From Comamonadaceae bacterium (GTDB lineage Bacteria > Pseudomonadota > Gammaproteobacteria > Burkholderiales > Burkholderiaceae_C), in contig CANGPN010000017.1 in the NCBI GenBank assembly GCA_947456305.1, positions 1 to 53,280 on the forward strand: a stretch of DNA of 53,280 bases, written 5' to 3'. Position numbers and translations under genes: made by a program. Below the pieces are notes generated by a model that worked only from the letters and a program-made list of their open reading frames with translations, was not told the DNA's origin and made no database searches. Shown here in pieces: positions 3,182-34,416 of this stretch (its first letter is position 1; each line of letters begins with the position of its first letter).

Positions 3182-4261
3182 TCAATAGGGCCCGCCAGAA
3201 CCCGCATTGGCAGAAACAGGTCGATTGGCGGACTCCAGAAAATCCTTCACACAGGCAATGGCATGGTCAATGCCTGCTTCATCTACATCCAAGTGCGTGA
3301 CAAAACGCAAACCAAGTAAACCTGTTGCAAGCACATTGGCTTTCTTCAAATATTCAAGCAAGGCGAGGCCGAGGCCTTCCGCCACATCGACAAACACGAT
3401 ATTGGTTTGCGCCGAGCGCACAGTCAAGCCCGGCAATCCGCGCAAACCATCAGCCAATCGCTTTGCCAACATATGGTCTTGGGACAAACGATGCACATGG
3501 TGATCCAGCGCGTGCAACGCAGCAGCGGCGAGAACGCCGGATTGACGCATGCCACCGCCCAGCATTTTGCGGGCGCGGTGCGCTTTTTGAATCAGTGCTT
3601 TCGAGCCGCAAAGCGCAGAGCCCACAGGTGCGCCCAGTCCTTTACTGAAACACACGGACACGCTGTCAAACAGATCACAAATGGTGCGTAATTCACTGAA
3701 TACATCGCTGCCATAGACAGCCGCCTGATCGACAGCTGCGTTCATGACACGGGCACCATCGAGATGAACCGCCAAACCATGCTGCCGCGCCAAACTACTG
3801 GCCTGCTGCAAATAGTCCATCGTCATACGCTGGCCGTTCCATGTGTTTTCCAAGGCCAGCAAACGGGTGCGCGCAAAGTGTGAATCATCAGGCTTGATGG
3901 CAGCTGCGATGTCTGCCAAAGACATTTGGCCTTTGGCATCTTGTACCAACGGTTGCGGCTGGATACTGCCTAGTACTGCTGCACCACCGCCCTCATAGCG
4001 GTAGGTATGGGCGTTTTGTCCAACCAGGTATTCGTCACCACGTTCGCAATGTGCCATGAGCGCGCACAAATTACTTTGCGTACCGGTAGGCATGAACAGC
4101 GCGGCATCTTTGCCGGTCAATGCAGCGATGCGCTGCTGCAAAGCAATGACAGAGGGGTCATCACCGAACACATCGTCCCCCAAAGGAGCTGCCAGCATGG
4201 CCTCGCGCATAGCGGGCGTTGGTTGTGTCACGGTATCGCTACGCAAATCAACAGTCTTCAT
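3182..4261 (-). CDS. ltaE: Low-specificity L-threonine aldolase (PLP enzyme) inside the trp operon
   Basis: A 359-residue fold-type I PLP enzyme that splits L-threonine or allo-threonine to glycine and acetaldehyde (family knowledge). Seen: the start [12 protein letters not shown], the PLP region GTQSN, HLDGAR near 167-171, and the Schiff-base lysine in [12 protein letters not shown] (Lys207). Its ATG overlaps the trpG stop as ATGA, so it is translationally coupled to trpG, and trpD follows. The enzyme has no step in tryptophan synthesis, so its place between trpG and trpD is odd. Family members can act on other beta-hydroxy amino acids such as phenylserine, so the exact substrate is open. 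Confidence 0.92.
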
Positions 4262-30324: not shown

Positions 30325-30873
30325 TCACAGTTGTCGCACGGCAGCCAGCCGGCGAATCAATTGCTGCACCAGGTCGGAGCGCATGTCCTTGTAGAGCAAC
30401 TGCTCTTCCGACTCTTTGGACAAGGCAGCGGTTTCATTGAAACTGATCTCACGTTCTTGTACCAATTCGGTATCCGGTATCAACTCATAGCCGTCACGTG
30501 TGCGCAGCCTGAAACGCACCCGGTAACGCAAAACATACTCGCGCACAGTGCCGGTGGAAGATTTGCTGAGAACCACTTTTTCCTGGGCTTCTTGGTTCAA
30601 TTCCAGAATCACCTGAGCTCGCTCTATTTCACGGGTATCGGTGATGATTTCCAGGTTGTTGATGGTCTTGAGATTGCGCTTGAGCAATTGCCCGAAGACC
30701 GAGGCTTCAGCAATGTTTGTGTACAAAGTGCTGAACACGAGTTCAGGCGGTTTGCGCAATTCAAAGCCGCAGGCCGTCAGCAAACCGGCCGCAGCCAAAC
30801 TGCCGGCTGCCTGCCAGGCAAGCGATAACAAGGCACGGCGTGAATAAGGGGCGGTATTCGCTTGGTATGACAT
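30325..30873 (-). CDS. lptE: LPS-assembly lipoprotein LptE
   Basis: The plug of the LptDE translocon at the outer membrane. The 182-residue protein has a lipoprotein signal with lipobox LLTAC (Cys35) after SRRALLSLAWQAAGS, a twin-arginine-like start, then CGFELRKPPELVFSTLYTNI and an LptE-like body. The ATG at 30873 overlaps the leuS stop as TGATG, so translation is coupled. I ignored a TTG one codon earlier. Confidence 0.93.
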   Translation of the reverse strand: MSYQANTAPYSRRALLSLAWQAAGSLAAAGLLTACGFELRKPPELVFSTLYTNIAEASVFGQLLKRNLKTINNLEIITDTREIERAQVILELNQEAQEKVVLSKSSTGTVREYVLRYRVRFRLRTRDGYELIPDTELVQEREISFNETAALSKESEEQLLYKDMRSDLVQQLIRRLAAVRQL

Positions 30874-33800
30874 CAAATCACCAGGTTCACCAACCGGTCG
30901 GGCACGACTATGATTTTTTTGACTGTCGCACCTTGCGCTTGTTTTTGAAAGGCTTCACTGGCCAGTGCGGCCTGCTCTATCGCCGATTTGTCGGCGCTGG
31001 CACTGACCACCAACGAACCGCGCAACTTGCCGTTGACTTGCAGCATGAGTTCAATTTCGTCGCGCACCAAAGCGGTTTCATCCACAGCGGCCCAAGCGAC
31101 ATCCAGCAAATCGCCGCAGCAAGCGGCATAACCCAAGTCGCCCCACAAGTGGTAACTGATGTGCGGACACACCGGATACAACACGCGCAACAAAATGGAG
31201 AAGCATTCAGCCAAAGCCGCGCCGTCTTCTGCGCTGTCGCTCAATGCTGCGTCTTCCAGTGTGTTGAGCATTTTCATCACGGCTGACACCACGGTGTTGT
31301 ATTGCATGCGCTCATAGTCGTAATTTGCCTGCTTGAGCACCGTGTGAATATCAAGGCGCAAGGCTTTGGCGGCCTTGCCGAATTCCACCGGTTGGCTACG
31401 GTCAACCGTCATACCTGCGGCAATGGCAGCGCGGTGCTTGTGGGCGAAATTCCAGACCCGCCGCAAAAACCGGTAACTGCCTTCCACCGCCGAGTCGTTC
31501 CACTCCAATGTGGCTTCAGGCGGCGCGGTGAACATGGTGTACAGACGCGCCGTGTCAGCGCCGTAGCGCTCGATCAGGTCTTGCGGGTCTACACCGTTGT
31601 TCTTGCTCTTGCTCATGGTACCCACGCCTTCGTAGACGATGGGTGTGCCAGCGGGCAAATTGCCCTTGGCCTCTTTCAGCACCGCGCCAATCACTTTGCC
31701 GCTGGCATCGTGCTGGTCCTGCACCTCATGCGGCCAGAAATACTCGATGCCGCCCTTCTCGCCTTTGCGCGAGTAAATGTGGTTGAGCACCATGCCTTGT
31801 GTCAGCAATTTGGTGAACGGCTCATCCACCTTCACCAAACCCAAATCGCGCATCACCTTGGTCCAAAAACGCGCATACAGCAAATGCAAAATCGCGTGTT
31901 CGATGCCGCCTATGTACTGGTCCATGCCGCTGCCGCCAACAGCCACACCTTCTTGGCGCATCCAGTAATCGGTGCCGTCGGCCACCATCTTGTCGGCATT
32001 CGTCGGGTCGCAATAGCGCATGTAGTACCAGCTCGAATCGACAAACGTGTCCATGGTGTCGGTTTCGCGCCGCGCCGGTTTGCCGCAGGTCGGACACACC
32101 ACGCCCTTGTGAAAACCTTCGTGCTTGTGCAATGGGTTGCCCGAGCCGTCAGGAATACAGTCTTGCGGCAACACCACCGGCAGGTCTTTTTCCGGCACAG
32201 GTACTGCGCCGTGTTCATCGCAATGGATGATGGGAATCGGCGTGCCCCAATAGCGCTGGCGGCTCACCCCCCAGTCGCGCAATCGCCAAGTGATTTTTTT
32301 CTCGCCCAGGCCTTTGGCGGCGAGCAATTCGGCCACCTTATCGACCGCGTCCTTGAAACGCAGGCCATCAAGTACGCCGGAGTTCAGGCACACACCATCT
32401 TTCGTGGCGTACCAGTCTTGCCAAGCGCGGTTGTCAAATGAACCGGCGTTCATCAAACCAGAAGCCGCAGAAGTGAGGCTTGCCCCTAGTGAGGAATCGG
32501 AGCCTGCGACTGACGAACCGGGGGCAAGCCTCACAGCAGCGGCAGTCTTAGCGCCAGAAGTAGCGCCAGTTGCGGAGACTGCTTTCGGCGATGTCTCGAG
32601 CAGACCTGATGTCGCAGAAATGTGAGCCGATGCGGAGACTGCTTTCGGTGATGCCGCGAGCTGACCTGATGTCGCAGAAATTTGAGCCGATGCGGAGACT
32701 GCTTTCGGCGAGGAGTCGGAGCCCGCGACCGACGAGCCGGGGGCAGTCTGCGCAACGGCATCACCACCCGTCAAACCAACAACCTGCTTAATCACCAACT
32801 GGTACTTCAACGCAAACGCAAAATCCCGCTCATCATGCGCCGGCACACCCATCACCGCGCCATCGCCATAACTCATCAATACATAGTTGCCGATCCACAC
32901 CGCCACCTGCTCACCCGTCAACGGATGCGTCACCTTCAATCCCGTGTCCCTGCCCACCTTGTCCTTCAACGCCAGCTCGGCCTCCGTCGTGCCCCCAGCC
33001 TTGCATTCCTCAATGAACGCCGCCAAATCCGGGTTGCCCGCCGCCGCGTGCAGCGCCAACGGATGCTCAGGCGCCACCGCGCAAAACGTCACACCCATGA
33101 TTGTGTCGGCACGCGTGGTGAACACATACATGCGACCGTCTTGTATCAACTGACCCGACGCATCCCGGATGTCATGCGTGAACGCAAACCGCACACCCTC
33201 GGATTTGCCAATCCAGTTTTCCTGCATCAAACGCACTTTGTCCGGCCAGCCGTTCAACGTGGCTTTGGGATTGCCAATCTGCACATGGTCCAGCAACTCT
33301 TGCGCGTAGTCGGTGATCTTTAAGTAGTAGCCGGGAATCTCACGCTTTTCCACCACCGCACCGGTGCGCCAGCCCTTGCCGTCAATCACCTGCTCGTTGG
33401 CCAGCACCGTCTGGTCCACCGGGTCCCAGTTCACCACTTGCGTCTTGCGGTAGGCAATGCCTTTTTCCAGCATCTTCAAAAACAACCACTGGTTCCATTT
33501 GTAATAGCTCGAATCGCAGGTCGCAACCTCACGTGACCAGTCGATGGCCAGCCCCATGGCCTGCATTTGCTGCTTCATGTAGGCGATGTTCTCGTAGGTC
33601 CACTTGGCCGGTGGCACACCGTTTTTCAGCGCCGCGTTTTCGGCGGGTAAGCCAAATGCGTCCCAGCCCATGGGCATGAGGACGTTGTAGCCCTTCATGC
33701 GCAAATGGCGCGTGAGCATGTCATTGATGGTGTAGTTGCGCACATGGCCCATGTGCAATTTGCCGCTGGGGTAAGGCAGCATAGAACAGGCGTAGTACTT

Positions 33801-33935
33801 GGGACGCGACTTGTCTTCGGTGACGCGGTAAACATCTGCCTGGGTCCAAGCCAGATGCACGGCTTTTTCAATAGCGCTGGCCTGGTAATCCGCAGGGCCG
33901 CTGACGTTGTCGGTGGTAGTTGGGGTGTGTTGCAT
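30873..33935 (-). CDS. leuS: Leucyl-tRNA synthetase with a large Ser/Ala-rich in-frame insertion
   Basis: Charges tRNA-Leu. Starting at ATG 33935 the product has 1020 residues, against roughly 860-880 for the family. All core motifs are intact: HIGH-type [14 protein letters not shown], editing-domain VGRDTGLKV and [31 protein letters not shown] and (K)MSKS-type TMSKSKNNG. The excess is an insertion at about residues 382-500, between IKQVV and [10 protein letters not shown] at the exit of the CP1 editing domain. It is rich in Ser, Ala, Gly and Thr, and includes [12 protein letters not shown] twice and a 20-residue repeat (SPKAVSASA...ISATSG) just over twice. Upstream in-frame sequence to 34133 is exbD in another frame and was not included. 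Confidence 0.95.
32473..32534. repeat. Palindrome-bounded repeat element, copy 1, inside leuS
   Basis: Perfect 14-base inverted arms GTGAGGCTTGCCCC (32473-32486) and GGGGCAAGCCTCAC (32521-32534) enclose a 34-base core containing GAATCGGAGCCTGCGACTGA. The core recurs in copy 2 with about five base changes, but the arms differ completely while staying self-complementary. On the coding strand it encodes the [12 protein letters not shown] motif of LeuS. Confidence 0.8.
32571..32710. repeat. 60-base tandem repeat (2.3 units) inside leuS
   Basis: The units start TGCGGAGACTGCTTTCGG at 32571, 32631 and 32691, exactly 60 bases apart. Units 1 and 2 differ at only a few positions and unit 3 stops after 20 bases, running into the copy 2 element. 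Each unit codes for 20 residues on the minus strand, so gain or loss of a unit keeps the leuS frame. Confidence 0.85.
32692..32753. repeat. Palindrome-bounded repeat element, copy 2, inside leuS
   Basis: Arms GCGGAGACTGC (32692-32702) and GCAGTCTGCGC (32743-32753) are inverted with one mismatch. They enclose a core containing GAGTCGGAGCCCGCGACCGA, close to that of copy 1. It is the same 62-base overall length as copy 1. The left arm is also the head of the adjacent 60-base tandem repeat, so the two repeat systems overlap. Confidence 0.75.
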
Positions 33936-33963
33936 GGGGCTCAATAAGAAACCCCGTGCGCGC

Positions 33964-34416
33964 TCAGTTGCTCGCAGGCGGGGAGATGGGCTGGATTTTA
34001 GGCGCACCCGACTGCACCGCCAGCGACACGCTGTGCAACTCGGATTTCTGGATTTCAGCCAGCACTTCGGCCACATTGCCGTAGGGCACGGATTTGTCGA
34101 CCTTGAGCTGCACTTCGGTGGCTTGCGCCGCATTCGCTCGCAGACTGAGCGCCCCAGCGAGTTGATTGACGGTCAGCACCTGGCCGTCCACTGACAATTG
34201 ACCGGTGCTGTCCAAGGCCACCACCAGCAACACAGGTTTGGTGGATGCAGGCGGGGCATCAGCCTGCGGCAACTCCATGTGCAATGCACTGGTCATCATG
34301 GGGGCAGCGATGATGAATATGACCAACAGCACCAGCATGACATCCACCAATGGCGTGACATTGATGTCCCCCATGGGCTTGTGCGGGGTGCGGCTGTCGA
34401 ATTCACCAAAAGCCAT
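33964..34416 (-). CDS. exbD: ExbD/TolR-family proton-channel subunit
   Basis: Couples the proton gradient to TonB or Tol work together with ExbB. The 150-residue protein has a short cytoplasmic start with the conserved [20 protein letters not shown], including the critical membrane Asp, one transmembrane helix, and a periplasmic domain. The ATG at 34416 overlaps the exbB stop by 14 bases. Whether it serves TonB or Tol-Pal cannot be decided from sequence; tonB, tolA and pal are not here. Confidence 0.9.

Follow-up and report, generated by a model that had tools for sequence, protein, structure and literature searches.

Two copies of a REP/RPE-type palindromic element, probably mobile, lie in frame in the leuS gene of a Comamonadaceae bacterium

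The leucyl-tRNA synthetase gene (leuS) in the window, the whole 53,280-nucleotide stretch of Comamonadaceae DNA that was analysed, probably contains two REP/RPE-type mobile palindromes, copies of a hairpin of about 75 nt that, in the genomes searched, is almost confined to Comamonadaceae. We give this reading, together with the mechanism that follows, a probability of roughly 60%. The unit would be recognized and copied as a single-stranded hairpin, either ssDNA or RNA, by an enzyme, and the stem would stay paired because folding is selected, aided by copying from arm to arm at the hairpin. For the host protein, the hairpin would be a tolerated passenger that selection on the gene keeps in frame. 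The window's clade would have inherited the element in leuS, duplicated it locally in tandem and lost it once.

The alignment of the window's enzyme with the N. gonorrhoeae LeuRS ends at query residue 454 (chain residue 372) and restarts at 564 (375). Residues 455-563, 109 in all, thus replace the two residues 373-374 of the N. gonorrhoeae enzyme, leaving about 107 residues extra. A first-pass annotation had placed two hairpin copies here, both in frame and encoding the same 12-letter peptide, at a point where relatives have a short linker. Both copies were found at that position (Table 1), translation confirmed the frame and the peptide, and the linker, 126 aa in the window, is down to 19 aa in the shortest element-free congeners (19-27 residues in 12 of 16 such congeners and 35-46 in the other 4). 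The extra coding segment that it described is also present, but its size of about 118 residues was too high, as both the N. gonorrhoeae alignment and the linker lengths put it closer to 107. Almost half of the extra length is supplied by a 60-nt tandem repeat that is absent from the first-pass annotation and whose third unit extends into hairpin copy B, covering its 5' arm and the start of its loop.

Table 1. Positions in the window of leuS, its extra segment and the repeats within it.
Feature	Position	Strand	Remark
leuS, leucyl-tRNA synthetase with insert	30873..34133	-	intact 1086-aa open frame
Extra coding segment, residues 455-563 of 1086	32445..32771	-	nucleotide limits computed from residue numbers
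Hairpin copy A	32473..32534	+	covariance-model span, 80.4 bits
Parts of copy A	5' arm 32473-32490; loop GAGGA-ATCGGAGCCTGCGACT-GACGA 32491-32516; 3' arm 32517-32534	+	
60-nt tandem repeat between hairpins A and B	32571..32718	+	two units and 28 nt of a third
Hairpin copy B	32692..32753	+	covariance-model span, 71.5 bits
Parts of copy B	5' arm 32692-32709; loop GAGGA-GTCGGAGCCCGCGACC-GACGA 32710-32735; 3' arm 32736-32753	+	

The two copies have in common 36-nt stretches (32491-32526 and 32710-32745) of 89% identity. The shared core noted earlier is real, and the count of differing positions is four in 36 nt rather than about five. A 23-nt core allowing up to three mismatches occurs twice in the window vs 0 occurrences in 100 shuffles. 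The arms of copy A, previously read as 14/14 paired, do pair in this way and reach 17/18 in the aligned frame, and their similarity extends outward to 32464 and 32543. For copy B, the earlier reading of 10/11 was correct as to self-complementarity and underestimated the pairing, which is 17/18 including G.T.

Copies in other genomes and other genes, several to a genome in relatives, support the proposal that these hairpins form a repeat family inserted in frame, as Rickettsia palindromic elements are; the core is not limited to this leuS, and a purely local expansion is ruled out. The core pattern, with at most three mismatches, gave 44 matches in 11 of 399 genomes of a family sample, vs a single match in each of 11/399 genomes for the reversed-pattern control. 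Serpentinimonas genomes hold 8 to 13 matches each, except one with 7. In the window's own genus the core was present in 7 of 84 genomes and the control matched none. Two single core matches (L041 and L042) with only 5/20 and 3/20 pairs were taken as chance, in agreement with the control. An exact scan of named genomes returned 22 stretches in Serpentinimonas barnesii, Tepidicella, Tepidimonas, Hydrogenophaga, Limnohabitans, another Comamonadaceae genome and Chromobacterium; the last match (L107) was dropped, as it differed from the core by more than 7 mismatches on re-scan. Loops that follow the same plan and differ in the apical part emerged from a script scan of the fetched loci. A covariance model built from 33 copies, whose rows were selected for arms with at least 13/18 pairs, matched 35 of the 399 family genomes, in 17 of 141 genera. 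In an order sample, also of 399 genomes, it matched three, namely the window genome, a second Comamonadaceae genome and a genome from a different family. Filters were strict in both searches; when they were loosened for eight chosen genomes, each gave 5 to 10 copies. Weak BLAST matches were mostly left unused. Carriage by phages or plasmids was rejected: two exact patterns were absent from viral_contigs, and two queries had no match in plasmids. The one matching genome outside the family (G659, L257-L259) has the same stem plan and a different apical part, e.g. ATTCGGCGCTTCTCAGCCGCT.

In the window genome, which spans 2.59 Mb at 86.9% completeness, leuS is the only place with the type-1 core, and three further structural relatives with a different apical segment lie at C9:48238-48692. 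Judging from their proteins, we take the flanking genes to be boxA and boxB. These three lie between the putative boxA and boxB at 3739-4193 in the coordinates of locus L195. A second genome (G381, L196) likewise has three hairpins with a similar spacer, and a third (G087, L220) has one between the same putative genes.

The anatomy of the family was drawn from 91 fetched sources, a selection of the covariance-search places, which yielded 145 model matches, 140 of them distinct. One defined strand can fold into a copy-specific stem of 24-25 bp capped by GASGA/GASGA, with an apical segment between the two GASGA ends, and this is the consensus plan of the 140 copies. In 73 of them the stem measures 24 or 25 bp, and the Watson-Crick fraction at the stem end is 0.80 at pair 24, 0.59 at pair 25 and 0.39 at pair 26. 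The left arm is G-rich and the right arm is C-rich. The loop ends are mainly GACGA/GAGGA or GAGGA/GACGA, and the middle S positions of the facing ends are complementary in 33/33 aligned rows (28 G-C and 5 C-G), and also in 140/140 copies as placed by a script biased towards that complementarity. We infer that the facing ends pair as tandem G.A on either side of a G-C pair. The apical part, 16 nt long in 89/140 copies and with about 4 bp in type 1, has a sequence that is common within clades and different between them.

Copies sit between genes or in frame within the linkers of large proteins, in either direction. In total, 110 copies lie in stop-free frames of at least 250 residues, and 81 of these had same-frame matches to further fetched loci on both protein flanks, while 15 had them on one flank. 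Some of the long frames are non-genes (L196, L220 and L225 lie between putative boxB and boxA). The 81 verified in-gene copies are divided into 46 on the strand opposite to the gene and 35 on the same strand. Host clusters, each named from one representative and with tallies that depend on the loci chosen for fetching, comprise uvrA (44), leuS (29, plus 3 after reassignment), a sigma-54 response regulator (6), murF (4), murD (3), and gyrA, hrpA and formate dehydrogenase alpha (2 each). The three reassigned leuS copies (L175, L176 and L228) were moved from a spurious opposite-strand frame for the host split, and the 81/110 count predates this move. Among 45 verified type-1 copies, 40 are read in two frames, giving peptides written with 15 or 14 letters; two are in another frame and are probably mislabelled leuS copies, and three have no frame assignment. 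Verified type-2 copies use matching acidic or serine-rich frames in 33 of 34 cases. The hydrophilic frame of each direction is used nearly always, although other frames of the core are open. As the same DNA yields different peptides in the two directions, it is the DNA or its fold, and not the peptide, that is kept. One uvrA frame (L208, G167:C54:6000-16000), stop-free over 2340 residues, holds six hairpins arranged as three divergent pairs.

The stems change and largely remain paired. In agreement with the earlier remark that the arms change yet stay paired, stem positions change on both sides together, with covariation of 0.756 vs 0.199 after shuffling in the 33 chosen rows, and 198 cells changed on both sides vs 63 in shuffles. 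Changes on both sides occurred at 18 of 23 pairs, a value that shuffles equalled in 62 of 500. This set leans towards pairing, its rows having been picked for good arms. A second test covered all of 62 rows, 59 of them found by the core alone, with the right arms dealt out anew among the rows. The outer pairs numbered 810/930 vs 491 expected (sd 18, maximum 556 in 2000). Across 14 orthologous groups, 308 stem columns comprised 225 invariant columns, 31 with at least two Watson-Crick types, 30 with G.T changes only and 22 with mismatches only; at these 22 columns, pairing was lost outright in some copy. Tandem copies and some others carry unpaired arms. In a response-regulator gene (L092, 1932-2236), four tandem copies lie 81 nt apart and only the last is fully paired.

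Mismatched pairs point to the strand that folds. On the GASGA strand, G.T pairs outnumber A.C by 190 to 26 over 122 copies with at least 18/24 Watson-Crick pairs, copies with arms shorter than 18 or below this threshold being left out of these pair tallies and of that for the stem end. Both the loop-setting scripts and the model lean towards pairing and credit G.T in part; the check is a set of 42 copies found by the core alone in a fixed frame, and here the ratio was 56:10. By host setting, the ratio was 51:4 for copies on the same strand as the gene (29 of 35 copies pass the filter), 69:14 for copies on the opposite strand (42 of 46) and 40:3 for copies that fall outside any frame of 250 residues (28 of 30). 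Repeated copies from a single site do not count as independent here, and the excess can be weak at individual sites, such as 4:3 for Limnohabitans leuS and 1:1 for boxB-boxA.

Copying within a genome was observed in part. Two loci of one Serpentinimonas genome (L085 and L086) carry an identical run of 72 nt, 36 nt on each side of the centre, and a locus in a sister species (L072) has 72-73 nt in common with both. The L085 site is empty in the sister genome G073, where the flanks are too diverged for exact ends to be placed. At L085 (G257:C1:1076833), the palindrome seems by eye to continue for about 14 bp of locus-specific sequence past the shared run, as if the target had been copied inverted. 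Elsewhere in G073 (L081, C1:1965918-1966388), the left flank of a hairpin locus recurs at several other places and constitutes another repeat family.

Neighbouring copies within 300 bp form 28 pairs when orthologous loci are counted separately, of which 18 are divergent, none convergent and 10 in the same direction; 7 of these 10 are tandem duplications 11-44 nt apart. The spacers between paired copies are locus-specific and common only to orthologues, which leaves a spacer-sharing dimer as the mobile unit unsupported. We also rejected inverted copies in Serpentinimonas as the insertion-sequence ends of a 2-2.7 kb cargo; these copies lie separately in murD and murF. The leuS tree places the window together with the element-bearing G405, G381, G473 and G421, and two genomes without the core, G419 and G404, nest inside the element-bearing clade, one inner fork being weak (87/63). 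The simplest reading of this tree would be one gain and one loss. Sequence resembling the right arm in the element-free G404 had suggested arms derived from the target; given the nesting of G404 and G419, a remnant after loss is simpler.

Three other explanations were weighed against the mobile hairpin. Quasipalindrome correction is a template switch at a hairpin in which one arm is rewritten from the other, and such arm-to-arm copying during replication, with no selection on the hairpin, might alone account for stems that change and stay paired. Of the 31 doubly changed columns, 16 are of the transversion type only and 2 of both types, with 13 of the transition type, and a transversion allows no G.T step. 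In a Limnohabitans copy (L097), three consecutive pairs were flipped from T-A to A-T, and the left arm of copy A in the window fits its own right arm while the tandem copies of a congener (L110, identical in sequence to L132) have arms that match poorly. Rewriting of this kind, however, predicts equal numbers of G.T and A.C, in conflict with the roughly five- to thirteen-fold G.T excess in the three host settings, and conservation in six leuS copies from the window's genus is higher for the loop (0.94) than for the arms (0.78 and 0.80). We consider it unlikely that arm-to-arm copying acts on its own. The strand-specific pairing and the tolerance of G.T would equally suit a structured RNA or attenuator in the host transcript that controls stability, termination or translation, and some copies do lie between co-directional genes, for example the putative boxB and boxA. 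Selection acting through the host mRNA would, however, invert the G.T:A.C ratio in copies opposite to the gene, which are 46 of the 81 verified in-gene copies and retain the same excess. Nor did Rfam 15 return any family at gathering score in 19 loci, and in the leuS insert (window 32300-32900, E up to 1) it gave three sub-threshold matches only. A role in the host transcript is the least probable of the explanations considered here.

A strand-specific hairpin and divergent pairs that resemble REP dimers also raise the possibility of a non-autonomous element of the IS200/IS605 or RAYT kind, transposed as a single strand by a Y1 transposase. A RAYT-like protein of S. barnesii (L104, 1515-2273) is accompanied by two hairpin copies, one at the 3' end and a weaker second copy alongside. 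This protein, however, reads QVRLLL in place of the NHLHLLL of its congeners; it was missed by the Y1 transposase model PF01797, and NCBIfam assigns it to no family. PF01797 itself had no match in three Serpentinimonas genomes with 8-13 copies or in a Tepidimonas genome with 3 copies, and was present in 20/24 element-bearing genomes vs 21/24 element-free ones. None of 30 Y1 loci from the PF01797 search had a hairpin copy nearby at E <=0.01. Mobilization by a Y1 transposase thus seems highly improbable. The analysis yielded no enzyme that copies the hairpin; the Y1 transposase (PF01797) was the single candidate tested.

A broader proposal, which we offer tentatively, is that of a mobile hairpin outside the RAYT system that is copied as one folded strand, with a stem that rewrites itself from copy to copy and yet stays paired. 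It would find safe harbour in the linkers of essential proteins that serve repair and translation, and the enzyme behind it might also mobilize CGTC-type REPs in general. For the spread of CGTC-type palindromes, the parts of Di Nocera et al. 2013 (PMC3733652) drawn on here leave the question open, with no accompanying transposase. This spread is testable, for example in Serpentinimonas, because the family offers a site that is empty in one genome, a pair of loci with identical copies, neighbours in strict orientation and a fold limited to one strand. It also illustrates clearly how the stem of a repeat can drift and still largely retain its pairing, and how extra segments arise in essential proteins.

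With regard to known palindromic repeats, the first-pass annotation knew of no such family here. We likewise found no description of one in these bacteria in the open-licence literature, but the kind is described, as the CGTC- and GTAG-tagged REPs that occur in genes (PMC3733652, in the sections used here). According to those sections, CGTC-tagged REPs carry a CGTC, TGTC or CCTC tag at one end, have in-gene copies, occur predominantly as inverted (HH) pairs with a negligible share of tandem ones, and show no association with a transposase; the CGTC and GTAG super-families together include in-gene units in uvrA and tRNA synthetase genes; Rickettsia palindromic elements are palindromic repeats in frame in protein genes; and RPE-4 and RPE-6 correspond to CGTC-4 and CGTC-1. 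GTAG REPs and REPINs, which are moved by RAYT, resemble the present family in being hairpins in inverted pairs, between and inside genes. The family differs from them in that GTAG is absent among the 12 commonest loop ends on each side, RAYT genes are not flanked by the hairpin and PF01797 is undetected in element-rich Serpentinimonas.

The differences from CGTC REPs, as far as these are described in the same sections, concern the hairpin itself. Their tag is unpaired and followed by a CCA tail, whereas the facing GASGA ends pair at S-S; their stem is 8-9 bp with a loop of 4-5, whereas here the apical part is mostly 16 nt and the outer stem 24-25 bp. The tagged unit here heads a copy-specific stem of 24-25 bp, a contrast for which the CGTC side is inferred from the description and from a yardstick, 250 kb of S. 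meliloti pSymB. The 8 CGTC-type matches there (7 places, one on both strands) had 1-5 of 14 outer pairs, with the reservation that 4 of the 8 have a tail GAG that pairs with the tag and that the both-strand place is by eye a longer palindrome. The covariance model (R1) gave a best E of 0.63 on the same 250 kb. On the side of likeness, GACG/GAGG on the hairpin strand reads CGTC/CCTC on the other, and in most copies it flanks the apical part on either side. Inverted pairs prevail, units are in genes and in frame (81/110 with both flanks conserved), and no transposase is associated. With Rickettsia palindromic elements, of another lineage and likened here by description, the family shares palindromic units in frame in protein genes. 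Two features by which CGTC REPs are described, the unpaired tag with its CCA tail and the 8-9 bp stem, are absent here, and we do not file the family as a CGTC REP or RPE; in its workings, it is like them.
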